A DNA stretch of 64,000 bases, from contig WLWQ01000003.1 in assembly GCA_012103535.1 (NCBI GenBank), positions 434,001 to 498,000 of the forward strand, read 5' to 3'. The notes beneath the pieces are model-generated. The model worked only from the letters and a program-made list of their open reading frames with translations. It did no database searches and had not been told where the DNA came from. Below, piece by piece: positions 22,094 to 50,414 of this stretch (positions within the stretch are counted from its first letter, which is position 1; every line of letters starts with the position of its first letter). The position numbers and the translations under genes are program-made. Origin of the DNA: Pseudomonadales bacterium (lineage in GTDB: Bacteria > Pseudomonadota > Gammaproteobacteria > Pseudomonadales > Pseudohongiellaceae).

Positions 22094-23455
22094 TTACAGC
22101 CCTCTGGGCTCCAGCCACTCACCCACTTCCAGCATGTCTTCCGCCGACAAAATACCCGCTTCTAGTTTAAGCAATAACAAATAGCGAACATGATCGTAGC
22201 GTGTAGTTTGCAAATCTCTTTGGGCTTGAAATTGGTCGCGGATAGCGTTGAGTACATCAACAGTTGTTACTGTGCCCAATTCAAATCCTTGCTGACTTGC
22301 TTCTGCGGAAAGTTCTGTCGACTCCACTAATCTCCTAGCGGCTTCAGTGCGAAGCTCACTGGATTGCACTTGTAAATAAGCGGATCGGACTCTTTCATTA
22401 GCTTCGAGCTGAGTGGCACGTAACTCGTTTTCAGCAATTCTAAACTGGCTTCTAGCTTCACTTACACGAGCGCGACTAGTTCCACCGGTATACAAAGGAA
22501 TTGAAACATTTACTCCAATATAGGTGTTCTCTGTGCGCGCTATAGGCGCATTATCGAATCCTACGTCAGAATCTTGTCGTTGCACTACGAAGTTCACCTG
22601 AGGCATATAGGCGCCTCTTCTTTCAGAAACCCTTTCGTCGGCTGCTTTAACAGCAAACTCTTGCGCCCTGACTTGATGGTTGCCAGTTCGAGCCTGGCGC
22701 ACCCAGTAGTTAATGTCGTTTTCTAGTTGCGGGATTACGGCTTCATTCGATAATTGAAAAATCGGACCAACATTGAGCCCGGATACTGATCGAAGAGCTT
22801 CCTGTGCAAGCGCGAGCTCACTTTGTAATAAAAGTTCCTCTGCCTCTACTGCAGCCAAAGCCGCTTCTGCTTCATAAAGATCGGTAATTTGAGAAAGCTG
22901 CAAATCGTACAAACTTTGAATTTGATCTCTTTGATTAGTCACCGCTTCTATTTCTGCTGCTATCGATCCAAGCGCATCTTCAGCCTGCAATACACCAAAA
23001 TAAGTATTCGCTACTTCGGTTAGAATGAAAGCGAGTTCGCCGAAGTATTCCACTTCGGCCCGGTCTTCTTCGTAAGTCGCAGCTTTCTTCGCTGCAAAGG
23101 CTTGCCAGTTAAAAAGTACCTGAGTCAATTGTAGTGAGTAACGGGTTCCATCAAACTCTGTAGAAATATCGGGCTCATTACGCGTGTTATCCGATAGGGC
23201 ACCGTTCACATTTACCTGTGGTAAGAGTTGACCGCGTGCCTGTCGGTAACGGGCACTGCCAATGTTTAAAGTTTCTTCTGCTATACGCAGGCTGGGACTG
23301 TAATCCAGTGCCGCAGTAAAAAAATCTTCTAGTGTTACTCCGATTGGTCCCTGGCCTGTTGAAGAAAGCTCAGCGGCTTGGATAGTCAAAGGAAAAAGAA
23401 AAAAAACGAGTAGCAATTTTGGTGCACAACCAAGAAGCACTAAGTACCTTTTCAT
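22094..23455 (-). CDS. TolC-family outer-membrane channel of type I secretion
   Basis: Outer-membrane efflux protein of about 453 residues from the ATG at 23455, 4 bp after the HlyD-family stop. It has a signal sequence (LVFFLFPLTIQAAE), then two repeated outer-membrane efflux domains with long heptad-rich helices. Motifs include NVNGALSDNTRNEP in the first repeat and VSIPLYTGGTSRARVSEARSQF in the second. As the last gene of the ABC-HlyD-TolC set it should form the outer channel of the exporter. Confidence 0.9.
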   Translation of the reverse strand: MKRYLVLLGCAPKLLLVFFLFPLTIQAAELSSTGQGPIGVTLEDFFTAALDYSPSLRIAEETLNIGSARYRQARGQLLPQVNVNGALSDNTRNEPDISTEFDGTRYSLQLTQVLFNWQAFAAKKAATYEEDRAEVEYFGELAFILTEVANTYFGVLQAEDALGSIAAEIEAVTNQRDQIQSLYDLQLSQITDLYEAEAALAAVEAEELLLQSELALAQEALRSVSGLNVGPIFQLSNEAVIPQLENDINYWVRQARTGNHQVRAQEFAVKAADERVSERRGAYMPQVNFVVQRQDSDVGFDNAPIARTENTYIGVNVSIPLYTGGTSRARVSEARSQFRIAENELRATQLEANERVRSAYLQVQSSELRTEAARRLVESTELSAEASQQGFELGTVTTVDVLNAIRDQFQAQRDLQTTRYDHVRYLLLLKLEAGILSAEDMLEVGEWLEPRGL

Positions 23456-23459
23456 AAGC

Positions 23460-24785
23460 TTAATCTTCGTTGAGACTGCGTGCGATTGCATTAGAGAACG
23501 GCTTAAACAAATACTGCAATAAAGTTCGTGATCCTGTTGTTATAAAGACTTCTGCAGGCATCCCAGGCATTAATTCTAAATTGCCCAACTCCTCCATTCC
23601 GTCTGGAGTTACCTCTACTCTAGCAAGATAATATGTAGTGCCAAGCTGTTCATCGGTGAAACTATCTGCGGACAAATTTACAACGTATCCATAAATTGTT
23701 GGAACCGTAGAGCCAAAAGTTGAAAATCGAATTTGTGCATCTTGATTAAGAGCAACACGATCGATATCAACAGGAGAAACTCTTGCTTCTATTATTAGTT
23801 CTTCACCTTGAGGGACAATTGTAGCAATGGTTGTGCCAGATGAAATTACGCCGCCAATGGTATGAAATTGCATGCCTGTAACAACACCTTCCTCCGGCGC
23901 ACGAACTACTGTTCTTGCAACGACGTCACTTAGCGCACTTATTCTTTCTACAACATCATTCAAGTTAGTTTGGGTTTCCCCCAATAACTCCGCAACTTCA
24001 TTTTGAAATTCACGTTCTTGCTGATTTATCTGTAGTCGGGTTTCACCTATTTGAACTTGTGTAGATGAAATAGTCGCAGTGAGCTCAGCAACTTCTCCCT
24101 GGTAGTTTGCCAAGTTTCTTTCCAGCTCACGCAAACGCGTAATGTCAGAAAAACCCTGCGCTAACAATTCACGAGTATCAGTTAACTCATCAGCGTATGA
24201 AGCAGCGAGTTGCTCTTTACTACTTCTGAGCGCTTCGTATCCGTCTACTTGAGAGCTTAATTGTTCGATTCTTTGTTCTAAGATTTCTACACTGTTGTCA
24301 TTCGACGCTTTGCGCGTTCCAAAAATTCCATTTTGAGCCGCAATTTCTTCCTGCGCCCTAAGATCATTTTGATCTAGTTCGTCTGGATAAGTTACAAAGT
24401 CACTGCCATCTCTTTCAGTAATTAGTCTTGATTCTCGAACTAAGTAGGCTACGAACTGACTATTTGCAATCTCTAACTCCGCTAATGCTTGAGTGTCATC
24501 TATTTTTAGTAAAGGTTCATTAGCCTCGACGTTGTCTCCATCTTCAACGTAAATTTCGTCAACGATTCCCCCTTCCAAATGCTGAACAATAGAGCTATAT
24601 GATCGAACCGTTACAGTACCTGCAGCCTGTGCTGCGCCATCAAGTGGAGCAATTGCTGCCCAGGCACCGAAAACTCCAAAAACCAGGAATAGCAACAAAA
24701 TTCCAACACGCAAAGGCATGTCCATACTTGTTTCTACATTAAACTTAGTTTCAGTTGGTACGTTCTCAAGTTCAGATATATTCAA
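23460..24785 (-). CDS. HlyD-family type I secretion membrane fusion protein
   Basis: Periplasmic adaptor of 441 residues. It has a short cytoplasmic N-terminus, one membrane segment (about residues 25-48), a split biotinyl-lipoyl-like domain (VQHLEGGIVDEIYVEDGDNVEANEPL, closing near RAPEEGVVTGMQFHTIGG) and a long coiled-coil hairpin between (about 105-275). The C-terminal beta-barrel ends at LMPGMPAEVFITTGSRTLLQYLFKPF, the type I HlyD signature. The start is TTG at 24785. The ABC gene lies 15 bp upstream. Confidence 0.93.
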   Translation of the reverse strand: MNISELENVPTETKFNVETSMDMPLRVGILLLFLVFGVFGAWAAIAPLDGAAQAAGTVTVRSYSSIVQHLEGGIVDEIYVEDGDNVEANEPLLKIDDTQALAELEIANSQFVAYLVRESRLITERDGSDFVTYPDELDQNDLRAQEEIAAQNGIFGTRKASNDNSVEILEQRIEQLSSQVDGYEALRSSKEQLAASYADELTDTRELLAQGFSDITRLRELERNLANYQGEVAELTATISSTQVQIGETRLQINQQEREFQNEVAELLGETQTNLNDVVERISALSDVVARTVVRAPEEGVVTGMQFHTIGGVISSGTTIATIVPQGEELIIEARVSPVDIDRVALNQDAQIRFSTFGSTVPTIYGYVVNLSADSFTDEQLGTTYYLARVEVTPDGMEELGNLELMPGMPAEVFITTGSRTLLQYLFKPFSNAIARSLNED

Positions 24786-24800
24786 AGTAATTTATCCACA

Positions 24801-26546
24801 TTAATTTGATTGCGCGGCATTGCTATTTGAGATTGGAGTTGCATCTTTAGATTGTGCTGCTTGTTGCGCTTCGAGCAATTTCGCCAGCACTTGATCCTTA
24901 GGTCCATATAGGTTCGTTGTGCCAGCCAATAGCATTAACATTTTATCTGCAATATTTAAGACAGAGGTTCGATGAGTAATTATTACAATGGTGCAACCCT
25001 GTTCCTTGATTCTTTGCAGGCTCACTACCAATTCACGCTCTCCATTTTCATCCAAATTTGAATTAGGTTCGTCTAATACAATGAAACAAGGATTCCCATA
25101 TATTGCTCTTGCAAGACCTATGCGTTGTCGCTGACCACCGGATAAGACACCTCCCACACCACCAATAACAGTGTCATAACCTTGAGGTAAATGCAGAATC
25201 ATTTCGTGAACACCTGCAAGTGTCGCTGCTTCTACGATTTTTTCTGAATCTATTTCGCCGAAGCGACAAATGTTTTGTGAAATTGTTCCATCAAATAGTT
25301 CAATGTCTTGTGGCAAATAACCAATATGAGGCCCAAGCTTTTTTCTATCCCAGCTAGCTATATTTGCGTTATCTAAGCGAACATGGCCGCCTGCAGCTGG
25401 CCATATTCCCAATAGGGCTCTTGCCAAAGTCGATTTGCCGGAAGCACTCGGGCCAATAATCGCCAATGCTTCGCCAGCTTTTAAATCGAGTGAGACGTTT
25501 TTTATTGCTGGCGTTTTTGCACCTGGCGGTACAACAGTAATTTTTTGAACATTTACGCTTCCTGATGGTGCAGGAAGATCCATGGTCTCCAAATCTTCAG
25601 GAACTTTAGCTAACAATTCCCCAAGTCTCCCATACTGTGCTCTGGCAACACTGAATCCTTTCCAATTTCCCACCAGCAAATCAATTGGTGCTAGTGCGCG
25701 ACCAAGCAAAAGTGAGCCAGCAATCATCATTCCAGGTGTGATTTCTTGTTGCAGAGCAAGTAATGCACCTATGCCTAAAAGTGATGATTGCATAATCATG
25801 CGGAAAGATTTTGAAAGACTGGAAAGTACGCTTGCTGCTTGACTCGCATTGGTTTGTAAGACGAGCACTTCATTAGAGAATTGTTCTTGTTGCGTTCTTA
25901 AGTTTTCTGTCATCCCCATTGCAGCAATGACTTCAGCGTTCCGTAAATTTCCAATCGTCTGGTTTGCAACCCAATTCGCCTTAGAGTTTGCGTCTTGTAA
26001 TCGTTTGCTCGTGGCACGCTCATTGATAGCAGCCAAAATGATCATGACAATTCCAGCGAATATAGCTGCAATACCAAACCAGGGATGAAACAGAAACATT
26101 ACTCCAACATAGATTGGAAACCATGGCGCATCGAAGAATGCATACAAACCATTCCCAGTTAGAAACTGTCGCAAACTTGATAAGTCCTGTATGAACTGAC
26201 CACCAGAGTCTTGGCTTCCTCCAAGCAAGGAGTTTTTGAAGGTTGCATCAAAAACTCTTTCTCTTAGATCCAGGTCCATGCGGTTACTCGCCCGAATGAG
26301 AATCATTGATCTCACCCATTCAAAAGCGCCAGCTGCACTCAATAGGCAAACCATTATGAGCGTGAGGCTTCCCAACGTTGACATGGATCCGCTAGTAATT
26401 ACGCGATCGTAGACTTGCAACATATAAATAATTGGAACGAGCATGAGACAATTTATGGCAGCACTAAAAACGCCAGCGAAAATAAAATAGCGTTTTATGG
26501 CCTGCATGCGCTCAGCAAGCTCTAAATATTGTGGGGATTTACTCAT
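24801..26546 (-). CDS. Type I secretion ABC transporter (PrtD-like)
   Basis: Fused membrane and ATPase exporter of 581 residues. The N-terminal half (about 1-310) is an ABC exporter membrane domain with no C39 peptidase or C39-like domain, so substrates are not expected to lose a double-Gly leader. The ATPase has Walker A GPSASGKST, Q-loop YLPQDIELFDG, signature LSGGQRQRIGLARAI, Walker B FIVLDEPNSNLD and switch His ITHR. This is the PrtD/RsaD class, which typically exports proteins with C-terminal signals. The likely substrate is encoded at 32877-35141. Confidence 0.93.
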   Translation of the reverse strand: MSKSPQYLELAERMQAIKRYFIFAGVFSAAINCLMLVPIIYMLQVYDRVITSGSMSTLGSLTLIMVCLLSAAGAFEWVRSMILIRASNRMDLDLRERVFDATFKNSLLGGSQDSGGQFIQDLSSLRQFLTGNGLYAFFDAPWFPIYVGVMFLFHPWFGIAAIFAGIVMIILAAINERATSKRLQDANSKANWVANQTIGNLRNAEVIAAMGMTENLRTQQEQFSNEVLVLQTNASQAASVLSSLSKSFRMIMQSSLLGIGALLALQQEITPGMMIAGSLLLGRALAPIDLLVGNWKGFSVARAQYGRLGELLAKVPEDLETMDLPAPSGSVNVQKITVVPPGAKTPAIKNVSLDLKAGEALAIIGPSASGKSTLARALLGIWPAAGGHVRLDNANIASWDRKKLGPHIGYLPQDIELFDGTISQNICRFGEIDSEKIVEAATLAGVHEMILHLPQGYDTVIGGVGGVLSGGQRQRIGLARAIYGNPCFIVLDEPNSNLDENGERELVVSLQRIKEQGCTIVIITHRTSVLNIADKMLMLLAGTTNLYGPKDQVLAKLLEAQQAAQSKDATPISNSNAAQSN

Positions 26547-26704: not shown

Positions 26705-27418
26705 TTAAAGCTCTAATAAGCCTTCTGCCAATTGCTTAAGAGCTTTAGGATTTTTGACCATTAATCTAGTTGGGCCGGCACGTTGCACCAGTTTTTGATT
26801 TTGTAATTTTTGAAACACACGGGTAACGGTTTCTCTACTGACATTTAGCATAATCGCAATTTCTAAATGCGTCGGAGGATTTGTAATGGCGCAGGTGTCG
26901 CTTTCGTCATTTTCACCTTCATTCTCATTATGTGGAACTAGCAACCAAAGCTGGCAACACACTCTTTGTGACACATTTGGAAGGCCCAACAGAGTCCGTT
27001 GGTGTGCCATTTCACGAAGTTTTTCCGCGAGTTTGCTGCTCAAGTTTGAGAGAACTTCAGGCGTTTTTGTCATAATTTCGCGAAAATTCACCAGTGGAAT
27101 TTTTACTACCACTGCGGTGGTTAACGCGACGATGTACTCAGGCTGAGGGCCGCTATCGAAGAGCGGCAATTCTCCACAAAAGTCTCCAGGCTCGACAAAA
27201 AACAGGCCTACTTCTCGGCCATCAATCGTGAAATCAACCCCTTGTAGCCGTCCCTCAAAAAGAAAGCACAGATGTTCCTGTTCTTCACCTGCTTTTAGGA
27301 CGATTTCCCGCCTTGCGAATTTTTGCAGCATAGCGACTTGCGCGAGGTCTTCTAGCGCTGCTTGAGGAACTGGTGCTAGGAGCGGAAATGTACTTAAAAG
27401 TTCTTTAGTTACAGCCAC
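26705..27418 (-). CDS. CRP/FNR-family transcription regulator with atypical ligand pocket
   Basis: Cyclic-nucleotide-binding-fold regulator of 237 residues, GTG start. The N-terminal beta-roll (about 18-125) contains GDFCGELPLF, equivalent to the CRP GELGLF element. An ungapped alignment by eye puts P93 and E94 where E. coli CRP has R82 and S83, which hold the cAMP phosphate, so a different ligand or mode is likely. No FNR-type N-terminal Cys cluster is present. The C-terminal helix-turn-helix THLEIAIMLNVSRETVTRVF keeps the R-E-xxx-R pattern that in CRP reads TGTGA/TCACA. It is divergent from the FecR-cyclase operon. Confidence 0.88.
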   Translation of the reverse strand: MAVTKELLSTFPLLAPVPQAALEDLAQVAMLQKFARREIVLKAGEEQEHLCFLFEGRLQGVDFTIDGREVGLFFVEPGDFCGELPLFDSGPQPEYIVALTTAVVVKIPLVNFREIMTKTPEVLSNLSSKLAEKLREMAHQRTLLGLPNVSQRVCCQLWLLVPHNENEGENDESDTCAITNPPTHLEIAIMLNVSRETVTRVFQKLQNQKLVQRAGPTRLMVKNPKALKQLAEGLLEL

Positions 27419-27520
27419 TTACACTACTCCATGTGAAAACACCGGTTTTCCAATTTCCAGTGGGCTAAAATATTGCTAAGTACTTGATATTTCATGGCAA
27501 TCACGAGTATTTTGACTTCA

Positions 27521-27536
27521 TGTGATTGAAGTCACG
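27521..27536. promoter_or_regulatory. CRP-type palindrome before the FecR-cyclase operon
   Basis: TGTGATTGAAGTCACG matches TGTGA-N6-TCACA at 9 of 10 defined positions. A candidate -10, TATTGT at 27558-27563, predicts a start near 27570, placing the palindrome at -41.5 as in class II CRP promoters. It also lies about 100 bp upstream of the divergent regulator gene. Confidence 0.68.
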
Positions 27537-27632
27537 CGCCACTCCTCTAGGTTAAGATATTGTTATTATTCGCCTAATTTTGGGTGGGTGGTCTATGAAC
27601 GTGACAGCCTTCGCTTTTCAGAGATACCGACT

Positions 27633-29054
27633 ATGACATACAAACCAATGATAGCACCGCATTTTTTCGACAATTCCCACGCCTTCTTGAAGAAGCGCGT
27701 GAGATTTCTGGGCATCCTTCTTTGCCTCTGGGTACCGCTTTTGAATGGCCAAGAGCTGCAAGCCCAAGAAGTAGACGCTGCAAGCGTTGTTGGTGAAGTT
27801 AGCCTGGTACTTGGTCGAGCATTTATTGTAAAAGCGAATGATTCGCGGCAACAAGCCAGTGTCGGAATAAAGATTACAGTAAGCGACAAAATTGAAACAG
27901 ATACAAATGGGCATGTGCATATTCGATTTATTGACGATGCTCTAGTTAGTGTTAGACCTAACAGCCAGTTTGAAATTGTGCGCTATGATTTCAATGCATC
28001 CAATCCAGAAGATTCCACGATCAAATTTAATTTGATCGAAGGTGTTTCACGCTCAATTTCTGGCGAAGGCGCTCGCTCATCCCGTGGAAGATTTCGCCTT
28101 AATACTCCTATCGCCGCTATCGGAGTGCGCGGAACAGATTTCGTTGTTCGAGCTACAGCTGAAACCACTCGTGCTTTGGTCAATGAAGGAACAATTGTAG
28201 TAGCACCCTATTCAGAGGGCTGCAGTGAAGCAGCATTCGGCCCATGTTCTTCGAACGCAGTGGCATTGACAGAATCAAGAATGCAAGAAGTGGCGTTAGA
28301 AGGCGAAGGTTCGGTGCCAAGAGTTGTACCTGCTACGCATGAAAGAGAACCCGATTCGATTCAGGCGGAAGTCCAACTGGCACTGAATGATTCCGATGAA
28401 AAAGTAGAAGAAGCAACAGCAGGTACTGAAGTCTATTTGGAAAGCGTTACTTCCGTTCGTGCAACTGAAGCCGTTGAGGAAGAAGCAGCTATTGAAATTG
28501 AAGCTAACGCTATTCCTGATTTTACCCCTGAAGCGCCAATCGATGCCCTCGCTTTAACCGATAGACAGCTTGTGTGGGGACGGTGGGCCGATGGCATTGG
28601 TGGAACCGAGTTGATCACCTTGCCTTATCTGGAAGCCCGAGAAGGTCGAAAAGTTGCTGTCGGAAATACTGACTATGCATTGTTTAGAACCCAGGGACCA
28701 TTTGCTCAAGTCGATGAAGGACTAACCGTTGTCAGTTTTAACCTTGATTCTGCGCAGGCGTTTTACGATTCAGAAAGCGGCATCGTTGCGATGCAAGTCA
28801 GCGGGGGTTCACTGGATATCGATTTTGTTCAAAGCTTGTTTAGCACTGAATTAAATTTGCTGCATGACTTTACGGGCAACGTAAATTTTGTAGCCAACGG
28901 AACAATTAGTGATCGTGGCTATTTTAATGCTATTGAAGAAAATCAAAGATTGTCAGGTGCAGTAAGCCAGGATGCCACAGAAGCCGGATATTTTTTCGAG
29001 AAACAATTAGAAATAGGAAGCATACAGGGGCTGACGCTATGGAATAGCAACTAA
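27633..29054 (+). CDS. FecR-domain envelope protein
   Basis: Exported protein of about 473 residues from the ATG at 27633; the frame is open further upstream. The signal sequence (FLGILLCLWVPLLNG, ending near LQAQE) is followed by a FecR domain (about residues 55-185) with VRPNSQFEIVRYDF, RFRLNTPIAAIGVRGTDFVVRA and two Cys residues in YSEGCSEAAFGPC. The acidic middle (about 230-310) is followed by a beta-rich C-terminal domain with repeated FNLDSA-, LDIDF- and VNFVANGTI-like strands. It is the first gene of an operon with the CHASE2 cyclase 2 bp downstream, an association I recognise from other bacteria. Envelope sensing is inferred; it is not next to a FecI sigma factor. Confidence 0.82.
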   Translation: MTYKPMIAPHFFDNSHAFLKKRVRFLGILLCLWVPLLNGQELQAQEVDAASVVGEVSLVLGRAFIVKANDSRQQASVGIKITVSDKIETDTNGHVHIRFIDDALVSVRPNSQFEIVRYDFNASNPEDSTIKFNLIEGVSRSISGEGARSSRGRFRLNTPIAAIGVRGTDFVVRATAETTRALVNEGTIVVAPYSEGCSEAAFGPCSSNAVALTESRMQEVALEGEGSVPRVVPATHEREPDSIQAEVQLALNDSDEKVEEATAGTEVYLESVTSVRATEAVEEEAAIEIEANAIPDFTPEAPIDALALTDRQLVWGRWADGIGGTELITLPYLEAREGRKVAVGNTDYALFRTQGPFAQVDEGLTVVSFNLDSAQAFYDSESGIVAMQVSGGSLDIDFVQSLFSTELNLLHDFTGNVNFVANGTISDRGYFNAIEENQRLSGAVSQDATEAGYFFEKQLEIGSIQGLTLWNSN

Positions 29055-29056
29055 TT

Positions 29057-31054
29057 ATGCGGTCATCGAAAAAAATAGAAATTACAATAAACCCATTAAA
29101 GTTTGCTCTGAATCTAGTGCCTTATCTTGGCCGATTCGCAATGCTTGTGTTCGCTGCTGCATTGAGTTTTGTTTTCTTATTCTCTTTTAACTCAGGCCTT
29201 TCAACATTAGAAGAGAGGCTTGGCACCTTGGGTTGGATTCAAAACCCAGATACATCTCTCGAAGAACGATTAATTATTGTAGCCATTGACGAGAAAAGCC
29301 TGGCTGAAGTTGGACCTTGGCCGTGGACTCGTCAACAAATGACTCAGCTAGTAACTTCGATTAACGATGCAGGTGCGCAACTGCAATTACATGATGTGGT
29401 ATATGCGGAAGCGAAGGCAGGCGACGTTGAATTACTAGCAGCATTGGAATCAAGCAATGGCGCAGTTCTGGCTCAAGTGCCTATTCTAGAAGCTGAAAAT
29501 TCGGTGCGTGCCAGAGTTGGGGAAATGACCTATCCTATTTCAGGAATAGCCTGCAACAGTCAAAGCACTTCTTTCCCAAGTACCAATAATTATCTTACTT
29601 CCACTACTGGTTTTGCTGGTATTCCCAAAGGGCATATTACCCCGGTAGTTGCGTCCGATGGCTCGATTAGAAACTTTCCAGCGATAGTTTGTGTCGACGG
29701 TAATGCCTATCCAGCTCTTTCAATCAGTGCCTTGTTACAGGCAACTAATAGTTTTGAATGGTCTGGGCAAGTTGATTCATCAGCTTCTATCTTTGGGCCG
29801 GCTCAATCTATTAGTTTCGCAGCCTACCCTGGATTAGAAATTCCATTGGACAGCAAAGGAAACATCAGAATCTCCTATGCGAAAGCACCGGAAAGTTTTA
29901 TTGCGCTTTCTGCTGCTGACGTAATTGCAGGAAATTTTGATCCCAGCTTGCTGGAAAATGCCTGGGTACTGGTTGGTGCTACTGCCTTTGGTATTGGCGA
30001 TATCGTACCCACTCCCTACAGTGGGGCAACGCCAGGAGTAGAAATACAAGCTCGAATCTTAAGTAGCTTGTTGGATGCAAATATTCCTTACACTCCGCAA
30101 GCATCTTTAGTCATCCAACTCTTTACCTGTTTGCTATTCGCCGGACTTCTGTTTGCGCTATCAAGTAGTTCAGGTCGATTGCCAGCGTATGGATTACCTA
30201 TTGCTGGATTGAGTTTGCCCCTTTTAGCACTATTGATACACATGCAATTATTAAGCTCTTATCAAATTTGGTTGGGATGGGTTCTTCCTTCTTTATATGG
30301 GTTTCTGGGAGCCGGGTTATTGTTTTTTCTTGAATACCGCCGAGTTCGAACAGAGCGGGGAATAATTTTCGATAATCTGAGCAGCTATCTCCCGAGTGAT
30401 TTAGCACAAGAAATTGCACTTGAACTACCGAGTTCCGGTGTAAAAGCAAAACGCTGTGATGTAACACTATTAAGCGCCGACCTGAGAAATTTCGCTGCCT
30501 ATGGAGAAGCGCGCCCGCCTGAAGAATCTGCCGACATACTGGACAAATTTTTCTCAACCGCTACTGAAATAATTGAGACTAGCGGAGGACGAGTTTACGA
30601 ATTTAAGGGAGACAGTCTTCTTGCAGTTTGGGATGGAATGACTCAGGCAGCTGCAGAAAGCGCCTTAGATGCAGGGCGCGCAATGCAAGAGGCCATTACT
30701 GCAACGCTGTTCGCAAATGAAAAGGTTACCGAATTGGAACCACTTGCACTAGGTATTGGAATTGAACAAGGTCCTGTCTTGATCGGTTCTGTCGGTGCGG
30801 CCCATCGCCGCAGTGCCGCCATGCTTGGTGATACTGTGACGATAGCGCTGCGGATCCAAGAACAAACAGCTGAACTCGCTCAACCAGTTCTTATTGGAGA
30901 GTGTGCGGCACGTCAGCTCGCAGATTATAATTTAGTCTCTCAAGGCAGCTATTTGCTAAGCGGCTTGCGCATTCCTCATGGTTTATTCGCACCTGAGCAC
31001 ATCTATGAATTTCAGCAGTCATCTGAAAGGCCTCATTTAAAAATCGTTTCTTAA
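29057..31054 (+). CDS. CHASE2-domain class III nucleotide cyclase with atypical specificity residues
   Basis: Membrane sensor cyclase of 665 residues. One N-terminal membrane segment (about 25-48) precedes an extracytoplasmic CHASE2 domain (about 50-345; IVAIDEKSLAEVGPWPWTR is typical). Three membrane segments follow (about 350-430), then a class III cyclase domain (about 465-640). The metal ligands D475 (SADLRNF) and D519 (FKGDSLLAVW) are present. The adenine-specifying Lys of KxxGD is Glu (E515), as in guanylate cyclases; the second specificity position is A588; the conserved Asn of GDTVN is T595, with R599 kept. The product could be a cyclic nucleotide other than cAMP, or activity may be low. 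Confidence 0.88.
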   Translation: MRSSKKIEITINPLKFALNLVPYLGRFAMLVFAAALSFVFLFSFNSGLSTLEERLGTLGWIQNPDTSLEERLIIVAIDEKSLAEVGPWPWTRQQMTQLVTSINDAGAQLQLHDVVYAEAKAGDVELLAALESSNGAVLAQVPILEAENSVRARVGEMTYPISGIACNSQSTSFPSTNNYLTSTTGFAGIPKGHITPVVASDGSIRNFPAIVCVDGNAYPALSISALLQATNSFEWSGQVDSSASIFGPAQSISFAAYPGLEIPLDSKGNIRISYAKAPESFIALSAADVIAGNFDPSLLENAWVLVGATAFGIGDIVPTPYSGATPGVEIQARILSSLLDANIPYTPQASLVIQLFTCLLFAGLLFALSSSSGRLPAYGLPIAGLSLPLLALLIHMQLLSSYQIWLGWVLPSLYGFLGAGLLFFLEYRRVRTERGIIFDNLSSYLPSDLAQEIALELPSSGVKAKRCDVTLLSADLRNFAAYGEARPPEESADILDKFFSTATEIIETSGGRVYEFKGDSLLAVWDGMTQAAAESALDAGRAMQEAITATLFANEKVTELEPLALGIGIEQGPVLIGSVGAAHRRSAAMLGDTVTIALRIQEQTAELAQPVLIGECAARQLADYNLVSQGSYLLSGLRIPHGLFAPEHIYEFQQSSERPHLKIVS

Positions 31055-31216
31055 ATGTGATACAGCTATAGTTTGTCAGCTAAACTAATTGGCAACTTTT
31101 TCCGATCTTGTTACCAAGTAGTCGCGATATTGCAACCATAGGAGCGATCCAAGATAATCGCCAGCATGACTCCAAGACGGCATGCATGCAGTACAAGCAA
31201 TGCCCCATCACGGTTA

Positions 31217-32542
31217 ATGCAAGCCGTGCTTCGACTTCTCTTCATATTTTCAATTGCTCCTTTCTCGACTTTCGGATTTGCCCAATCAAGTTGCCCGGAT
31301 CTATCACCTTTTTATGGTCAAGGTGAAAACACAGATTGGCTACAAGTTAGCAATCGACTTGAGCCACTGCAGCAGTTGTGTCTGAATAATGCTGAATACT
31401 ATGCACTTTACGGCGCCGCCGAACTCAATCAAGGAAATGCACCTGAGGCGGCAGAACTGCTTGAGCGGGCACTCCTGTTAGACCCAGACAACGGATCGGC
31501 GCAAATTGATTATTCACAGGCACTATTCGTGCAGGGCCAATTGTTTACCGCGCTGGAGATTAATGAGCAGCTGATTGGGCGCCAGGATTTGCCATCAGAT
31601 CTACGGCCTGGATTAGAAGAGAGACAGCAATTCTGGGAGTCGTTTACCAGAGATAGAGATTCCTCATTCGATCTTCTGGCCGGTTACGACAATAATCTTA
31701 ATAGTGCGCCAGATTCTAGTTTGATTAACTTGACCCTGTCCGGAGAGACTATTCCCCTTGAACTTAGCTCGGAATTTCAGGCCACCAGCGGCCCCTATCT
31801 GAATTTCCGCTTAGGCAGTCGCTTTCGTCAATTAGCACCACTGCATCAACACAACTGGCTTTTAGACATGCGAGGCAGATTTAGCGAGGATACAGACTCC
31901 GATCTGCTGCAGCTAGACGGGCGCTATACCTTTATTCGCCCGAGTCGCAATCACAGTTGGCAGTTAAATGGCGGAGTAAGCCACTTATTGTTCGGCGGAA
32001 GCTCGCTTTTCACCTTAGGCAATCTGAGTGCGATCTATCAGCCGCCGGTGACAGCGACTTGTCGGCCGTTTTTAGGATTTGCCCTTCAAAATCAAATATT
32101 TAGCACCCAAAAAGAGCTAAACGCCATCGAAGGTAAAATCAGCGGAGGATTAAATTGTCCCCTCCAATTGGGAGAAAACTCCCATCAAATTAGCGCAGAA
32201 ATCGGGGCCCTGCAGAATAATGCCGCCGATAGCGAACGCCCCGGTGAGGATCGTGATGGCTGGCAACTCAATTTTGCCTGGCAATTTCGGGCCTTGGGTG
32301 GAGATGTGATTACCCAACTAAGTTATACGGAACTCAACGATGACGAGGGCTACAGCCCATTGTTGGCCAATGGAGCAAAGCGTTGGCTGCGTCGGAGTTA
32401 CGGTTTGGTACAGTATCGCCGGCCCCTGCGCTCAAATTTAGTGCTGATTGCTAATTTGTTTCACCAGGATCAAGACAGCAATTTAGAGCTATTTACCAGC
32501 CTCGATACCACCTTCGAAATCGGCATTTCTTACGCTTGGTAG
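31217..32542 (+). CDS. TPR and outer-membrane beta-barrel protein
   Basis: I do not recognise a named family member with certainty. From the ATG at 31217 the protein has 441 residues and starts with a signal sequence (VLRLLFIFSIAPFSTFGFAQ); an in-frame ATG at 31166 would add 17 residues. TPR-like repeats (about 40-130: ALYGAAELNQGNAPEAAELLERALLLDPDN) are followed by about 300 residues of alternating beta strands ending in EIGISYAW, a terminal aromatic as in outer-membrane barrels. This layout resembles surface-protein assembly modifiers of the Slam/DUF560 type. It lies between the cyclase and the acidic exported protein, so a role in retaining or displaying that protein is a reasonable inference. 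Confidence 0.62.
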   Translation: MQAVLRLLFIFSIAPFSTFGFAQSSCPDLSPFYGQGENTDWLQVSNRLEPLQQLCLNNAEYYALYGAAELNQGNAPEAAELLERALLLDPDNGSAQIDYSQALFVQGQLFTALEINEQLIGRQDLPSDLRPGLEERQQFWESFTRDRDSSFDLLAGYDNNLNSAPDSSLINLTLSGETIPLELSSEFQATSGPYLNFRLGSRFRQLAPLHQHNWLLDMRGRFSEDTDSDLLQLDGRYTFIRPSRNHSWQLNGGVSHLLFGGSSLFTLGNLSAIYQPPVTATCRPFLGFALQNQIFSTQKELNAIEGKISGGLNCPLQLGENSHQISAEIGALQNNAADSERPGEDRDGWQLNFAWQFRALGGDVITQLSYTELNDDEGYSPLLANGAKRWLRRSYGLVQYRRPLRSNLVLIANLFHQDQDSNLELFTSLDTTFEIGISYAW

Positions 32543-32589
32543 GAAAAAAAATCTGTATTTTGACGACGTGGGAAAAATCGTTGAAAAAG

Positions 32590-32605
32590 AATGATTTAAG
32601 TCACA
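32590..32605. promoter_or_regulatory. Weak CRP-type half-conserved site
   Basis: AATGATTTAAGTCACA keeps the TCACA half and a 6-bp spacer but has only a TGA remnant in the other half. It is about 155 bp upstream of the perfect site at 32745. It may be an auxiliary site or chance. Confidence 0.3.
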
Positions 32606-32744
32606 AAAAATGGGTAGAAAATGGCCCCGTTTTGTTGTCTTAGAGCCCTATCGAGAGTAAAATCCCCCAACTTTCTGAGCAGCTGCCGATATACATGGGG
32701 CGGAAATGCAATGAGAGACGGAAAAAACAGGTATTTACTTTCGG

Positions 32745-32793
32745 TGTGATTCTAATCACAAGTGGTGGAGACAGCCTTAAGTATGCTTGCACT
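32745..32793 (+). promoter_or_regulatory. Perfect CRP-type site and candidate class II promoter of the acidic protein gene
   Basis: TGTGATTCTAATCACA (32745-32760) is a perfect TGTGA-N6-TCACA palindrome. TATGCT at 32782-32787 is a candidate -10 that predicts a start near 32794, again placing the site at -41.5. The transcript would have a leader of about 83 nt ending in an AAGGAG Shine-Dalgarno (32865-32870), 6 nt before the ATG. The rest of the 334-bp gap (32543-32876) holds the weak site at 32590 and nothing else I can name. Confidence 0.7.
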
Positions 32794-32876: not shown

Positions 32877-35141
32877 ATGGCTGATGCTGAAACATTAAAC
32901 GAAATAGTCGAGCTCGTAGTGGGCATGGTAGACGCTGCCCCTGGCGCGGATATTCTCGCTGAACTCGAAGTCGCAGTAGATGCAGGTGCGTCTGTCGCAG
33001 ATCTCGCAATAGCGATCGCGGCGAATCCTGTGTGGAGCGGAGATACGGGACTTTTCCCAGATTTCCTGCCTAATGCAATCTTTGCAGATCAATGGATTAC
33101 CCAATTGATGGGTGGTGTTTTTCCTGATGATGAAGACGGAAATACTGATCCACTTTTGCAAGCAGCAATTGATGAAATGACAGCGTTACTAAATGCTGAT
33201 GTGGGACGTGGCGAAGCTATGTACTCCACCATCGTTGCTCTAGCTGCTACAACTGATGCTGATTATGCAGACGCTTCGGCTGCCTTAGTAAACAAGACAG
33301 CAGTTGCTTCTTACTATTCAATTGACGTAGCCCAGTCATCTGAAGATCTCGACGACCTTATTGGTGTTGTTGAAGGTGTTGATGAAACTGAAGAATCTGT
33401 TGACGATGCTACTGATGCGGTCGATGGTAATGTAGCTGCAAACCAAGAGCTGAGCACACTGGTTTCAAATCTGTCTGCTGCTGATGCAGCGGTTGACGAT
33501 TTACTAGACGATATCGATATGACTGCTGGCGAAGTTGGTACTGCAGTAACTGATGCTGAAGACGTCATCGATGGTCTTATTGTAACTGCCACTGCCGCTG
33601 ACGCCGATACGGTTGATGCTGCTGCGGACGATTACAATGACGGATCAGATGCCATCAAGGCAGCGCTAATTTCTGACGCTGAAGGCGCGAACGATAACGT
33701 TCTAGAAACTTTAAGCGAAGCTGTCGACGACGCACAAGAGCTTGTTGACGATGAAGACGGTCTAGAAAGTGCTAGTAACGTCTACGTAGCCGCATTTACT
33801 TCGATGCAAGACGCATACGAAAACGAAGATTTAGCAGCTGTTGCATTGGCTGATGCAGTTGCGGTTTTTGATGCCACTGCTGCCAATATCACCAATGGAT
33901 TCACGGCCACCGATACTGCTGGTGGTACTTATTCCGATGGTACCGATCCCATTATCGAGTGGAATACCGGAATGACTGCTCTGATATTGAGCGACGACGT
34001 TGATGAGACTACTCATCCCGGCGTAACCGACCTTCTTAATGCAAGCACCGCTAATGTTCTTGCAGGTCTTGCAGTAACTGCTGCTGAAGGTGATCTTGAG
34101 GATGCATTGGATGAAGTAGAAAACATCGAAGCTGCAGCTGCAGCAGATGCTGACTTAGCTGCTGTAGGCACTTACTTAGATGCCAACCCTTTGCCGGATG
34201 CTGCTACTGATTATCCTACAGTGGGTGAAATCGCTGCGACTGCCGCAACATTGGATGCTGGCATATTGCAATTGGACGCCGATCTTGAGGCTGTCACTTT
34301 TGATACTGATGACGCCACAACATTAGCTAATGTCACTGCAATCCTTACTGCTGCTGCAGCGGCTGGTTTCTTGGATACCGGTACTCCAGACAACATTACC
34401 GACCTGCTTACAGCATTCGGTGATGACGGCACAGACGATGATGACTTTGCTACACCTGCTACATTGGAAGGCGCAATTGATGCTGTTCAAGCTGCACTCG
34501 CTGCTGAATCAGCGGATTTTGAGTTTGATACTCTGGTAGCTGCTCACACTGCAAACGGTGACACTGGTGTTCTTGCAGATGCAGATGACTTTGCTACACC
34601 TGGCCTTGCTACAGACGCCTTGGCGACTGCAGCTCCTATAGCGCTTGGTCTAATCGGCGCTCAGGTAGCACTTGCTGCTCAAGCAGCCGCAATCACAGCT
34701 CTAGCGGACGCCATCGATGAGCTGGGCGAAGCTGAGGAAAATTCTGATGCACTAGCTGCTCTTAACCTTGCAGCCATAGCCGCAGCCGCAGCCTTTGATG
34801 ATGCAGGATTCAATACTCCTGTGGATCTGGATTCAGCGGTCAAAGCAGCTACCAGTGACGATGATGTCTTCTTGGCTGATGGTATCGATTCACAGATTAT
34901 CTCCTTCGCTGACGGTGACACTCTGTATGTCGGTGATGGCTACGTGCTAAATGAAGGTGATCTTGATGATGACGGTGATGATACACAACTAGAAGTATTC
35001 TTTGATGGCGCTGACGTCATTATCGAAACTAGCGTGTTCGGATCTAATGCCGCTCAGCAGGAAATCATTACTATTTCCTTAACGGGTGTAGACACTGATG
35101 ATCTTGCTCTAGACACTGATGGCTTTGTAGCCTTCGCCTAA
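32877..35141 (+). CDS. Highly acidic Ala/Asp-rich protein, predicted type I secretion substrate
   Basis: A 754-residue protein with no Cys, only three Lys and one Arg by my count, and very many Asp, Glu and Ala residues. No Sec signal is visible. Residues about 1-150 resemble the DUF4214-type module of bacterial surface proteins (VVGMVDAAPGADILAELEVA and ALVNKTAVASYYSID). The middle (about 155-640) is helical, repetitive low-complexity sequence with a recurring DDFATP. The last 85 residues (ISFADGDTLYVGDG, FFDGADVIIETSVFG, ISLTGVDTDDLALDTDGFVAFA) look like the beta-rich, glycine/aspartate C-terminus of type I substrates; there are no canonical nonapeptide RTX repeats. The type I exporter on the other side of the regulator is the obvious candidate for its secretion. 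A surface-layer or adhesive role is inferred. Confidence 0.72.
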   Translation: MADAETLNEIVELVVGMVDAAPGADILAELEVAVDAGASVADLAIAIAANPVWSGDTGLFPDFLPNAIFADQWITQLMGGVFPDDEDGNTDPLLQAAIDEMTALLNADVGRGEAMYSTIVALAATTDADYADASAALVNKTAVASYYSIDVAQSSEDLDDLIGVVEGVDETEESVDDATDAVDGNVAANQELSTLVSNLSAADAAVDDLLDDIDMTAGEVGTAVTDAEDVIDGLIVTATAADADTVDAAADDYNDGSDAIKAALISDAEGANDNVLETLSEAVDDAQELVDDEDGLESASNVYVAAFTSMQDAYENEDLAAVALADAVAVFDATAANITNGFTATDTAGGTYSDGTDPIIEWNTGMTALILSDDVDETTHPGVTDLLNASTANVLAGLAVTAAEGDLEDALDEVENIEAAAAADADLAAVGTYLDANPLPDAATDYPTVGEIAATAATLDAGILQLDADLEAVTFDTDDATTLANVTAILTAAAAAGFLDTGTPDNITDLLTAFGDDGTDDDDFATPATLEGAIDAVQAALAAESADFEFDTLVAAHTANGDTGVLADADDFATPGLATDALATAAPIALGLIGAQVALAAQAAAITALADAIDELGEAEENSDALAALNLAAIAAAAAFDDAGFNTPVDLDSAVKAATSDDDVFLADGIDSQIISFADGDTLYVGDGYVLNEGDLDDDGDDTQLEVFFDGADVIIETSVFGSNAAQQEIITISLTGVDTDDLALDTDGFVAFA

Positions 35142-36230: not shown

Positions 36231-37079
36231 GTGGAAACGCAGATAGTTAATACTCTTTCAATTGCTATCGTTTGCTACCACACTTCGATAGAAGACCTAT
36301 CAGCCTTACTCGAATCTATTCTGATTTCTCTTCAGCCACTTTCTGAACTAGATACGAAATCAGCCACAACAATTTATTTGATTGATAACTCAGAAGAAAC
36401 GAATGTCGGGCTTGAAGATTTTAAGCAACTAAAAAATCAATTTGATATCCATAGAATAGAATTGAGACTAATCCACGGCCAGGGAAACATTGGCTATGGA
36501 AGTGCACACAACCTTGCATTAGAGAAATCAAGCGCTCAATTTCATTTGTTACTGAATCCTGATGTTGTACTTGATAAAGATTGTCTAAAAATTGGCGTAA
36601 GTTACTTATTAGAAAATAGTAAAGTAGTTATAGTGAGCCCAAGCGCAGTAGACGAAAATTCGGCTAAGCAGTATCTGTGCAAACGTTACCCTTCGGTTCT
36701 TACTTTTATTATTAGAGGTTTCTTCCCCGGGGTTCTTAAAAAACTATTTCGCAAAAGATTGGAAAAATTTGAAATGCATGAGTTGTCGGAAGACAAGCCT
36801 GGAATAGATATTCCAATAGTCAGTGGCTGTTTTATGTTATGCAGAACGAGTGCACTAAAAGATCTCAACGGTTTTGACGAAAAATATTTTCTGTACTTCG
36901 AAGACTTTGATCTCTCTTTGCGCGCGGCTCGAGTTGGTAGAATAGATTACCTGCCGGCGATGAGAATTGTGCATGGCGGTGGAAACGCCGCGAAAAAAGG
37001 GATTTCCCATCTTACAATGTTTGCACAATCCGGTATTCGTTTCTTTAATTCCCATGGTTGGCGATTTTTCACACAGTAG
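36231..37079 (+). CDS. Family 2 glycosyltransferase
   Basis: A 282-residue GT-A fold glycosyltransferase with a GTG start. The N-terminal IAIVCYHTS strand, GQGNIGYGSAHNLAL, the DXD-like region LLLNPDVVLD, and PIVSGCFMLCRTSALKDLNGFDEKYFLYFEDFDLSLRA are characteristic of rhamnosyltransferase-like GT2 proteins (WbbL/RfbF type). The downstream rml genes make dTDP-rhamnose, which fits a rhamnosyl donor, though the sugar is inferred. It probably acts at the cytoplasmic face of the inner membrane in O-antigen assembly. Confidence 0.85.
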   Translation: METQIVNTLSIAIVCYHTSIEDLSALLESILISLQPLSELDTKSATTIYLIDNSEETNVGLEDFKQLKNQFDIHRIELRLIHGQGNIGYGSAHNLALEKSSAQFHLLLNPDVVLDKDCLKIGVSYLLENSKVVIVSPSAVDENSAKQYLCKRYPSVLTFIIRGFFPGVLKKLFRKRLEKFEMHELSEDKPGIDIPIVSGCFMLCRTSALKDLNGFDEKYFLYFEDFDLSLRAARVGRIDYLPAMRIVHGGGNAAKKGISHLTMFAQSGIRFFNSHGWRFFTQ

Positions 37080-37099
37080 AATAAGGAAAAATCACTTCG

Positions 37100-38080
37100 A
37101 TGGAAAACCTAAAAATCAAACTTCTAGTAACAGGCGCTACCGGCTTTATTGGCCAATCCTTATGCAAAAAACTCCAAGGATCCGAATACTGTATTAGAGC
37201 TCTAGCCCGAGAGTCCTCTGACAGCTCAAAACTAGAAAGGAATTCTAGCAATATCGAAGTTGTTTTCGGTGAGCTCTCGGACAAGGAATCGCTAGGCCAC
37301 GCTTGCAAGAACATAGATATAGTTATCCACCTGGCAGGTATTGCTCATGTTAACAACGTGGCTTCGAATGCCTTTCAGCAAACAATCTACGATGGCTCTA
37401 AAAACTTATTCGATTCAGCTATCGCGAATAAAGTAAAAAAGATAGTTTTCTTGAGCAGTGTACTTGCTGAAGCGGCAGAGAATTTTGACGACGAAGTGAC
37501 TGCTTATGGACAAGCAAAATACAATGCTGAAGTTTATTTGAAAAATGCCTGTGCGAATTCTGCTACTGACTACCTTATTTTACGACCAGTAAATGTGTAT
37601 GGGCCGGACATGAAGGGCAATATAATGAGCATGGTACGATGGATAAGAAAGGGAATTTTGCCATCTCTTCCAAATGTAACAACGAAAATTTCTCTTATAA
37701 GCGTAAATGACTTAGTTGAACTCGTGGAACTATCACTAATTCACCCTAAAGCAGAGAACAAATGCTTTACGGTGTCAGAGTCAACTCCTTACGAATTACT
37801 TGAGATAGAAAAAGCCATTTATCAGGCACTGGAGAAGAAAATTCCCACTAGCCATACGCCGCGTATGCTATTATACGCCGCGGCTGGAGCTAGTGGATTG
37901 ATCGCCAAAATGCTCGAAATTTTTGGGCTGAGACCTCCCTGGGGCGGAATTAATCTTCGAACTTACAGAAACCTTATCAGTGACAGTGTTTATACAAGTG
38001 AGTCGCTTTGTTCTGAATTAGGATTCATTCCAAGCAGAAATTTTTATGATGAACTTCCGTCAATTGTAGAAAAAACATAA
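37100..38080 (+). CDS. NAD-dependent sugar epimerase/dehydratase family protein
   Basis: Extended short-chain dehydrogenase of 326 residues. The nucleotide-binding motif is VTGATGFIGQSL, the catalytic pair is in YGQAKYNAE (YxxxK), and LRPVNVYGPDMKGNI is the usual substrate-side segment. It lies between the glycosyltransferase and rmlA, so it probably makes or reduces a nucleotide sugar for the same polysaccharide. Similar proteins include 4-keto-sugar reductases that precede undecaprenyl-phosphate sugar transferases, but no such transferase is present here. The exact reaction is not determinable. Confidence 0.82.
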   Translation: MENLKIKLLVTGATGFIGQSLCKKLQGSEYCIRALARESSDSSKLERNSSNIEVVFGELSDKESLGHACKNIDIVIHLAGIAHVNNVASNAFQQTIYDGSKNLFDSAIANKVKKIVFLSSVLAEAAENFDDEVTAYGQAKYNAEVYLKNACANSATDYLILRPVNVYGPDMKGNIMSMVRWIRKGILPSLPNVTTKISLISVNDLVELVELSLIHPKAENKCFTVSESTPYELLEIEKAIYQALEKKIPTSHTPRMLLYAAAGASGLIAKMLEIFGLRPPWGGINLRTYRNLISDSVYTSESLCSELGFIPSRNFYDELPSIVEKT

Positions 38081-38128
38081 GCAGTAGAATCAATATTATC
38101 CAAGAGCCAGTAGATCCCAGAGAATTGA

Positions 38129-39001
38129 ATGACTAAAGGAATAATCTTAGCGGGAGGTAGTGGTAGTCGCTTACACCCCATGACCCTGGCGGTTAGTAAA
38201 CAGCTCATGCCTGTTTACGACAAACCTATGATTTATTACCCTCTCTCGACTTTAATGCAGGCTGGGATTCGAGAAGTATTGATTATCACAACACCTGAAG
38301 ATGCGGCAGTATACGAGTCGCTATTGGGAGACGGCACAAATTGGGGATTGCAGCTAAGTTACGCACAGCAACCAAAACCGGAGGGCTTGGCTCAAGCATT
38401 CTTAATTGGGGAAGAATTTATTGGTGATAGCAGAGTGTGTTTAATACTCGGTGACAATATTTTTTATGGAAACCGAATCGAAGACACTTTAAAAAGCGCA
38501 GTCGAACAACAGGAAGGCGCAAGTATTTTTGCTTATTACGTAAACGATCCAGAACGCTATGGAGTGGTCGTATTAGATGAAAATAGTCGCGCTGTGGATT
38601 TGGAAGAAAAGCCTCTGCAACCCAAATCCCATTATGCTGTTACTGGGTTGTATATGTATGATAATGATGTAGTTGAAGTCGCTAAATCTATAAAGCCTTC
38701 TGCCAGAGGTGAACTAGAAATTACAGACGTCAATAAAGTTTACTTAAAGAGAAAAGTTTTACGCGTTGAACTATTTGATCGCGGTACTGCTTGGCTTGAC
38801 ACCGGAACAACTCAATCTCTACTCGATGCCGCAAATTTTATTCGAGTTTTAGAAGAACGACAGGGTCTAAAAATTGGATGCCCGGAAGAGATTGCATGGC
38901 GGCAAGGATTCATTGACGATTCACAACTGCGTGTTCTAGCAGGAAAATTGGATAAGAGTGGATACGGTCAATATCTAGTTGATATTTTAGAAGATCGCTA
39001 A
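38129..39001 (+). CDS. rmlA: Glucose-1-phosphate thymidylyltransferase
   Basis: First enzyme of dTDP-L-rhamnose synthesis, joining glucose-1-phosphate and dTTP; 290 residues. The signature [16 protein letters not shown] is followed by [30 protein letters not shown] and [13 protein letters not shown], all characteristic of RmlA/RfbA. It is the first of the compact rmlACDB run (gaps of 9, -4 and 4 bp). Confidence 0.97.
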
Positions 39002-39010
39002 TCGATTGCC

Positions 39011-39556
39011 ATGAAAATAGTTGAAACCTCCATTCCTGATGTTTTGATATTTGATCCTACTGTACATGGAGATGATCGTGGTTACTTCATGGAAACTTTT
39101 CGTCTTGCCCATCTTACAAATTTAGACCCATCAATTAATTTTGTACAAGACAATCAAAGCAAGTCTAAGCAAGGAACGCTTCGAGGCTTACATTATCAGT
39201 TAAAATTTCCACAAGGAAAACTTGTTAGGGTAATTTCAGGCGAAGTGTTTGACGTTGTAGTAGACATCAGACAGAGTTCACCCACATTTGGCAAATGGGA
39301 AGGATCGATACTCTCAGCCGAGAATAAGAAACAGTTATGGGCACCAGCCGGATTTGCCCACGGGTTTTACGTTCTTTCAGAATTTGCAGAAATGACCTAT
39401 AAGTGTACTGAGTACTATCATCCAGAAGACGATTACAGCTTGCTTTGGAATGATGAAACTATTGGCATCGATTGGCCGTTGTTAGATCCAAGTCCGTTAC
39501 TTTCTGATAAAGATCAGAAAGCCTTTTCTTTTACCGACGCTCCTCTATTTCCGTGA
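39011..39556 (+). CDS. rmlC: dTDP-4-dehydrorhamnose 3,5-epimerase
   Basis: Cupin-fold epimerase of 181 residues, third step of dTDP-L-rhamnose synthesis. Motifs are DDRGYFMETFR, QDNQSKSKQGTLRGLHYQ with the catalytic His region, GEVFDVVVDIRQSSPTFGKW and WAPAGFAHGFYVLSE. It overlaps rmlD by 4 bp (GTGA). Confidence 0.97.
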   Translation: MKIVETSIPDVLIFDPTVHGDDRGYFMETFRLAHLTNLDPSINFVQDNQSKSKQGTLRGLHYQLKFPQGKLVRVISGEVFDVVVDIRQSSPTFGKWEGSILSAENKKQLWAPAGFAHGFYVLSEFAEMTYKCTEYYHPEDDYSLLWNDETIGIDWPLLDPSPLLSDKDQKAFSFTDAPLFP

Positions 39557-40443
39557 GCCAAAAACAGATAGTTATCACTGGAGCCAAGGGCCAGCTTGGT
39601 TTAACGCTTCAATCTCTTTGGGAAGATTCCGAATTGCAGCATGATTTCGAATTGTGCTGCACAGATATAGAAGAGATGGACATCACTTCTTGTCAATCTA
39701 TTAGAGACTACTTGGGCAAGCGTCAGGTCGAAGCAATAATTAATACCGCAGCTTACACTGCTGTAGACAAAGCAGAAGCTGAGCCTGAACTAGCTTATTC
39801 TATTAATTCCAATGGCGCGGAAAACATCGCGAACTTCGCCCATGAACATGGTTGCAAGCTAATTCATATATCCACTGATTTTGTCTTCTCCGGCAGCAAA
39901 GATTCGCCTTATTTCCCCGATGACGAAACTGGTCCGCTTAGTGTCTACGGGAAGAGTAAATTAGCAGGCGAACAAGCAATATTAAGCAAATGTCCTGACC
40001 GCTCTACAATACTTCGAACTTCCTGGTTGTATTCACAGTTTCAGTCGAATTTTGTTAAAACTATGCTGCGCCTATTGCAGGAGCGAGAAGAACTAAACGT
40101 AGTCGATGATCAGATTGGTGCGCCAACTTCCACTAACTCTCTTATTGAGCTTATTTTTAAAGTGTTGGCTGCAAATGATTCATCAGGAATATACCATTGG
40201 AGTGATTCAGGAAATATTAGCTGGTATGATTTTGCCCTCGAAATTCAGAAGCAAGGCTTAGTTGCTGGAATAATTAATTCGGAAATTCCAATAAACCCTA
40301 TATTAACTGAAAAGTATCCCACTCCAGCACAGCGGCCAAGCTACAGTGTATTAGATACGGAAGGAACTCAGGAAAGGTTTTCTATAGCACCTAAACCGTG
40401 GAAAGAGAGTCTTCAGCAGGTTATTCAGAAATTAGCAGCATAG
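39553..40443 (+). CDS. rmlD: dTDP-4-dehydrorhamnose reductase
   Basis: Last step of dTDP-L-rhamnose synthesis, 296 residues, GTG start overlapping the rmlC stop. The nucleotide-binding motif is ITGAKGQLGLTL. The family-typical INTAAYTAVDKAEAEPELAY, STDFVFSG, VYGKSKLAGEQAI (YxxxK) and LRTSWLYSQFQSNFVKTML are all present. Confidence 0.96.
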   Translation: MSQKQIVITGAKGQLGLTLQSLWEDSELQHDFELCCTDIEEMDITSCQSIRDYLGKRQVEAIINTAAYTAVDKAEAEPELAYSINSNGAENIANFAHEHGCKLIHISTDFVFSGSKDSPYFPDDETGPLSVYGKSKLAGEQAILSKCPDRSTILRTSWLYSQFQSNFVKTMLRLLQEREELNVVDDQIGAPTSTNSLIELIFKVLAANDSSGIYHWSDSGNISWYDFALEIQKQGLVAGIINSEIPINPILTEKYPTPAQRPSYSVLDTEGTQERFSIAPKPWKESLQQVIQKLAA

Positions 40444-40447
40444 CGAT

Positions 40448-50371: not shown

Positions 50372-50414
50372 TGTGAGCTCTCTCACAAGATTATGAGGTC
50401 AAGCTGGGTAAGCT
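50372..50414 (+). promoter_or_regulatory. Perfect CRP-type palindrome before the HD-GYP gene
   Basis: TGTGAGCTCTCTCACA (50372-50387) is a perfect TGTGA-N6-TCACA site. The hexamer at the class II distance (TAAGCT, 50409-50414) is poor and would put the transcript start 1 nt before the ATG at 50422, giving a leaderless message. The site could equally act as a repressor or use another start. Confidence 0.6.

Follow-up and report, generated by a model that had tools for sequence, protein, structure and literature searches.

A gene cluster for type I secretion in the 64-kb stretch analysed here (the window; contig WLWQ01000003.1 of a marine-type Pseudomonadales bacterium) carries two operators of the CRP type, and in this bacterium and dozens of its relatives these are apparently recognized by a copy of CRP, encoded next to them, that lacks the residue binding cyclic AMP (cAMP). 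The cluster is probably a self-contained regulatory module, independent of cAMP-CRP, that serves a single type I secretion system together with its surface protein. Comparison between genomes established the sites, their spacing, the synteny, the residue changes and the co-occurrence and co-loss of genes on which this reading is based. What is new relative to the initial annotation of this DNA is that the module appears to be separate from cAMP-CRP at both ends, the cyclase and the receptor; the loss of R82, the presence of a CHASE2 cyclase whose purine site is of the guanylate type, and the probable action of operator 1 on a divergent promoter had all been missed.

Operator 1 (TGTGATTGAAGTCACG, 27521..27536, plus strand), with one core mismatch, lies between the regulator gene and fecR, and is followed by the -10 element TATTGT (27558..27563, plus strand) of the fecR-cyclase-TPR operon, with a predicted start at about 27570. 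Operator 2, the perfect palindrome TGTGATTCTAATCACA (32745..32760, plus strand), is located upstream of an exported-protein gene with the -10 element TATGCT (32782..32787, plus strand) and a predicted start at about 32794. All of these coordinates, as first annotated, proved exact on re-reading of the sequence. In both promoters the -10 begins 37 bases past the start of the site, which places the centre of the site at -41.5. The class II geometry that had been proposed was borne out, as the same spacing is kept across the promoters of relatives; both features expected of class II promoters were found, namely a TGTGA-N6-TCACA-type site near -41.5 and conservation of the site together with its -10. 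Bare palindromes are no more frequent than expected, with three at up to one mismatch in the 64 kb (2.15 expected) and 26 at up to two (28.9 expected), and an argument for significance from palindrome counts alone was therefore rejected. The combined pattern TGTGAYN4RTCAC-N22-TAnnnT matched exactly twice in the window, at operators 1 and 2, compared with 0.00 times in 100 shuffles. Its Y/R and -10 constraints were derived from the alignment of relatives, so that it is the conservation that provides the independent evidence. Two further candidates around the operators were discarded: an overlapping inverted repeat, TGACTTCA-TGTGAT-TGAAGTCA, around operator 1 was not seen in the aligned sites of relatives and was taken to be coincidental, and a weak site upstream of operator 2 (32590-32605) has no counterpart there in any relative, the nearest case being one distant two-mismatch site in locus L034.

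The related loci were labelled mostly as Pseudohongiella, Pseudomonadales and unclassified Gammaproteobacteria. Regulator and cyclase co-occur in the same 14 genomes; among 281 other genomes searched, no match to the cyclase was found and the only further regulator match was distant (34% identity). The gene order, tolC-hlyD-prtD and regulator on the minus strand and then fecR, CHASE2 cyclase, TPR and cargo genes on the plus strand, is kept in every relative of the same family with a sufficiently long contig, and two genomes from a different family of the same taxonomic order retain regulator-fecR-cyclase-TPR but not an adjacent exporter. A TGTGA-N6-TCAC site was present between regulator and fecR in all 14 genomes, and a perfect palindrome upstream of the cargo gene in all 10 of these that could be tested. 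The larger GTDB set comprised 80 loci, 79 of them with sufficient sequence for the first site and 54 with a region past the TPR gene. Operator 1, with one mismatch allowed, was recognized in 78 of the 79, with exactly one mismatch in 76 and none in two, and operator 2 in 46 of the 54 (45 perfect, one with one mismatch), although one of the 45, in L103, is doubtful as it lies six bases past the TPR end. The eight regions without a site belong to loci in which no cargo was detected there, and two of these have a site and a cargo-like gene elsewhere within the same neighbourhood. As a control background, the site was found in 12 of 1689 500-bp blocks from the same loci.

The spacing is likewise conserved. 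Counted from the first base of the site, TAnnnT begins at exactly +37 in 56 of 60 non-redundant fecR promoters and is at most one base away from this position in the other four; for 32 cargo promoters the counts are 28 and four. Offsets other than these gave means of 1.1 and 0.44, respectively. The centre of the site is therefore at -41.5 in relatives too. The two operators differ in the last base of the palindrome, which is T, C or G at operator 1 (A in two of 60) and A at operator 2 in 31 of 32. From these alignments operator 1 is a conservedly weakened form of the palindrome, and operator 2 a perfect one. On the regulator side most relatives carry a promoter of the form TTTGCTA...TATAAT, of which the window holds a weaker version (predicted at 27473..27500, minus strand; -35 TTGCCA 27495-27500, -10 TAGCAA 27473-27478). 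The palindrome of operator 1 is centred at -62.5 from this promoter in 26 of 61 cases and at nearby values in more, with an automated assignment of -35 and -10 that was good in 37 of the 61 and ambiguous in the rest. Because of this position, operator 1 probably serves both directions, including the regulator's own divergent promoter.

The local regulator (237 amino acids, 26705..27418, minus strand) was modelled by AlphaFold as a confident CRP fold (predicted local distance difference test score 91). The initial annotation held that it keeps the CRP recognition residues, and this was upheld in 94 homologues, in which the equivalents of R180, E181 and R185 are present in 93, 93 and 94 sequences and the remainder are gaps. 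The position of R82, the arginine contacting the cAMP phosphate, is deleted in all 94, S83 is mostly replaced by Pro, and the T127/S128 positions align to M or L, and T. Outer DNA-contact residues have also changed (K166 to P, H199 to D and R169 to H), and a pocket stretch, EGRLQGVDFT-DG-E, is near-invariant. The score against the CRP equivalog model NF008732 is 85.5 bits, far below the cut-off of 266. Given the kept recognition residues, the missing R82 and this low score, the protein is best regarded as a CRP-like reader of DNA that is not a canonical cAMP receptor. One outlier, L144 (Marinospirillum), may lie outside the regulator group, since it has no neighbouring cluster genes and no site, and carries an Arg beside the R82 gap.

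In the source genome, from which the window comes, there is a housekeeping CRP whose cAMP pocket is intact, and the same holds for 10 further genomes of the 14 bearing the cluster. No housekeeping CRP was found in six genomes, namely G138, G214, G234, the isolate Terasakiispira papahanaumokuakeensis PH27A and two single-chromosome Pseudohongiella assemblies, the last three having been reached through their cluster loci. The sole CRP match in each of the six is the local regulator (22-26% identity; in G138 below the threshold of the first search), and all six retain the site adjoining the regulator gene. Because these genomes keep the site, the local regulator is most likely the protein that binds the operators; the finding argues against binding only by a housekeeping CRP encoded outside the window, the outcome that the initial annotation had named as fatal to its proposal. 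The six genomes yielded no class III cyclase other than that of the module, and a class I cyclase was absent from all nine genomes tested, including these six. In G138, G214 and G234 a motif search, as distinct from a structure test, gave no cNMP-domain protein with the canonical GE...RSA phosphate-binding motif. It was also observed that two loci from genomes without a housekeeping CRP, L166 and L167, encode large exported proteins about 200-255 bp 3' of perfect palindromes near the regulator, with RTX repeats in two of the three.

A search of 17 genomes for the site combined with its -10 gave 29 matches. Of these, 27 fall at promoters of the module's fecR or cargo-like genes, and the two exceptions are one in G162 and one in the source genome. 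The source genome has three matches in total, operators 1 and 2 and a site at L251:8714 (contig C1:13713), 177 bp before the gene for an unlinked FecR-domain protein of 1234 amino acids, the promoter of which is a possible third member of the regulon. As the combined site occurs only three times genome-wide, the regulon is likely to be small, and this count, together with the conservation, supports the earlier suggestion that the two sites define a local regulon. Other perfect palindromes occur on contig C2 of the source genome (L170:5148 and L170:9448) before a PEP_mutase-family (prpB-like) gene and an HSP20 gene. Sites for CRP in E. coli have A/T-rich flanks. Those of the PEP_mutase and HSP20 palindromes are likewise A/T-rich (AAATGTGA...TCACATTT), unlike those of the cluster sites, and the two palindromes are candidate targets of the housekeeping CRP. 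The third site of the window with at most one mismatch, the perfect palindrome TGTGAGCTCTCTCACA (50372-50387), is outside the cluster, and a DUF3391/HD-GYP gene (50422-51729) follows it after about 35 bp. No -10 was found at class II spacing from this palindrome, which may reflect a link of the housekeeping CRP to cyclic di-GMP turnover, or chance.

The second component of the module is a CHASE2 sensor protein with a class III cyclase domain (29057..31054, plus strand). Both metal-binding Asp residues are present in all 76 cyclase homologues, and all 76 carry Glu at the position of the adenine-specifying Lys; the second purine-site residue is mostly T in the homologues and A in the window cyclase. 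Two other cyclases of the source genome carry Lys (the purine-site pattern matched only two of five other cyclases). Guanylate cyclases have Glu at this position and a variable second residue (PMC4215837). Because Glu replaces the Lys of adenylate cyclases, the module cyclase is predicted to be of the guanylate type. Among its transition-state residues, Arg is kept in nearly all homologues and Asn is mostly Thr.

A mechanism for the module may be proposed, in which binding, activation, messenger and sensing are all deduced from sequence. A dimer of the local CRP-like protein would bind TGTGAY-N4-RTCAC through the recognition residues of CRP and activate two class II promoters, that of fecR-cyclase-TPR at operator 1 and that of the cargo gene at operator 2. 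Bound at operator 1, it would probably also activate the divergent promoter of its own gene, for which the operator is centred at about -62.5, a class I-like distance, and thereby perhaps the exporter genes that follow. Sensing at the envelope likely falls to FecR and the CHASE2 domain. The product of the cyclase would be a cyclic nucleotide, cGMP (cyclic GMP) being more likely than cAMP, that tunes the regulator either directly, in a rebuilt pocket, or by an indirect route; as another option, concentration alone may set the activity of the regulator. The fullest version of this scheme, a private circuit in which a CHASE2/FecR-coupled, guanylate-type cyclase signals by a messenger other than cAMP to a CRP-family factor with a rebuilt, R82-less pocket that reads CRP-type sites for one secretion system and outlives cAMP-CRP and all other cyclases that the searches could find, is put forward only tentatively.

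Several other explanations were considered. A chance origin of the palindromes, in promoter DNA that is AT-rich, agrees with the bare counts across the window, but is refuted by the fixed spacing and the conservation across genomes and can practically be dismissed. It is improbable, too, that the operators belong to the housekeeping cAMP-CRP, with the local regulator as a modulator or acting elsewhere: the site is strictly linked to the local regulator gene, the six genomes lacking housekeeping CRP keep it there, and A/T-rich flanks mark the two non-cluster sites and not those of the cluster, even though 11 cluster-bearing genomes, including the source genome, have an intact-pocket CRP that recognises the same core, and perfect CRP-like palindromes also precede the PEP_mutase-family and HSP20 genes. 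Sharing of the operators by the two proteins, in competition or cooperation, would integrate global cAMP-CRP with the module. Such an arrangement, somewhat unlikely overall, is favoured by the identity of R180, E181 and R185 in both proteins and the presence of both genes in one genome, whereas the module persists in genomes without the global CRP and the outer DNA contacts of the two proteins differ.

The regulator might instead be effector-independent and driven by its concentration, as are SdrP, TTHB099, DdrI and PgCRP, with the cyclase signalling elsewhere. The absence of R82 throughout the homologues and the precedents reviewed in PMC12937710 lend this some plausibility, yet we consider it somewhat unlikely in view of the strict pairing with a cyclase whose metal residues are kept, the near-invariance of the pocket stretch and the failure of a motif search in three CRP-less genomes to show a further protein whose cyclic-nucleotide pocket is canonical. 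Some observations weigh against a cAMP-CRP-independent module or its proposed signalling. The housekeeping CRP of the source genome, having CRP-type recognition residues, could bind the same sites; the loss of R82 may mean that the regulator has no ligand whatsoever; and cyclase activity is not assured, because the transition-state Asn is mostly Thr. In addition, the CRP-less set includes draft assemblies, although an isolate with a 4.04 Mb scaffold and two single-chromosome assemblies also belong to it.

The remaining genes of the cluster are consistent with type I secretion. Those of the exporter, on the minus strand, encode a TolC-family outer-membrane channel (22094..23491; TIGR01844 just below its cut-off at 220.3 versus 225 bits, Pfam OEP above), an HlyD-family adaptor (23460..24785; 367.8 bits, cut-off 209) and a PrtD-family ABC transporter (24801..26546; 730.8 bits, cut-off 510). 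On the plus strand, the FecR-domain protein (27633..29054) has an N-terminal signal-like segment, and the C-terminal half of the TPR protein (31166..32542) resembles, by inspection, an outer-membrane barrel. The exported cargo (32877..35141, plus strand; 754 amino acids, Ala/Asp-rich), whose N-terminal segment is conserved in relatives, is probably a type I secretion substrate and a putative surface protein. A possible 13-codon leader reading frame (27595-27636) was noted within the operator 1 transcript, its TGA overlapping the fecR ATG (ATGA). Just 3' of the cargo gene, at 36231-41524, are glycosyltransferase-like and dTDP-sugar genes (NTP_transferase, RmlD and dehydratase families), which might provide a polysaccharide that anchors a surface layer.

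The module shares features with several known systems. As at class II promoters of E. coli CRP and Pseudomonas Vfr, the TGTGA-N6-TCACA core, the -41.5 centre and R180/E181/R185 are found, but the regulator here is about 25% identical, lacks R82, uses sites without A/T-rich flanks and apparently controls two or three promoters rather than a global regulon. CgrA of Rhodospirillum centenum, with its guanylate cyclase, and Clr of Sinorhizobium meliloti are cGMP- or dual-responsive CRP proteins (PMC10127613), and the CRP-like gene here likewise adjoins a cyclase with a guanylate-type residue. Clr holds its nucleotide by R95/S96 (PMC10127613), equivalents of which are absent from the present regulator; in addition, the present cyclase is a membrane protein of the CHASE2 type, and a secretion system is the target. 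The ligand-independent factors SdrP, TTHB099, DdrI and PgCRP (PMC12937710) resemble the regulator in having a CRP fold and no usable cAMP site, but no cyclase pairing is described for them in that review, whereas the regulator here is strictly paired. Type I secretion of surface-layer proteins is known for Caulobacter RsaA and in Methylomicrobium album BG8 (PMC7821379, PMC13274458), where the secretion genes also lie beside that for a large exported surface protein, with a PrtD-type ABC transporter, HlyD and TolC in BG8; the surface-layer role of the present cargo is putative. In neither paper was a CRP, FecR or CHASE2 cyclase module found to be described, and no description of a CRP-FecR-CHASE2-secretion module was found in the open-access literature searched.

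The DNA code of CRP thus appears here separated from cAMP, the same operator at class II spacing being kept by an R82-less CRP relative. Sites of the form TGTGA-N6-TCACA should accordingly not all be ascribed to the housekeeping CRP. Several lineages have apparently lost global cAMP-CRP and its cyclases yet kept the module, and these serve as natural knock-outs for asking how CRP paralogues that share one DNA site are kept separate. For cGMP or other messengers in envelope-protein export, too, the module provides a well-defined case on which to test them.

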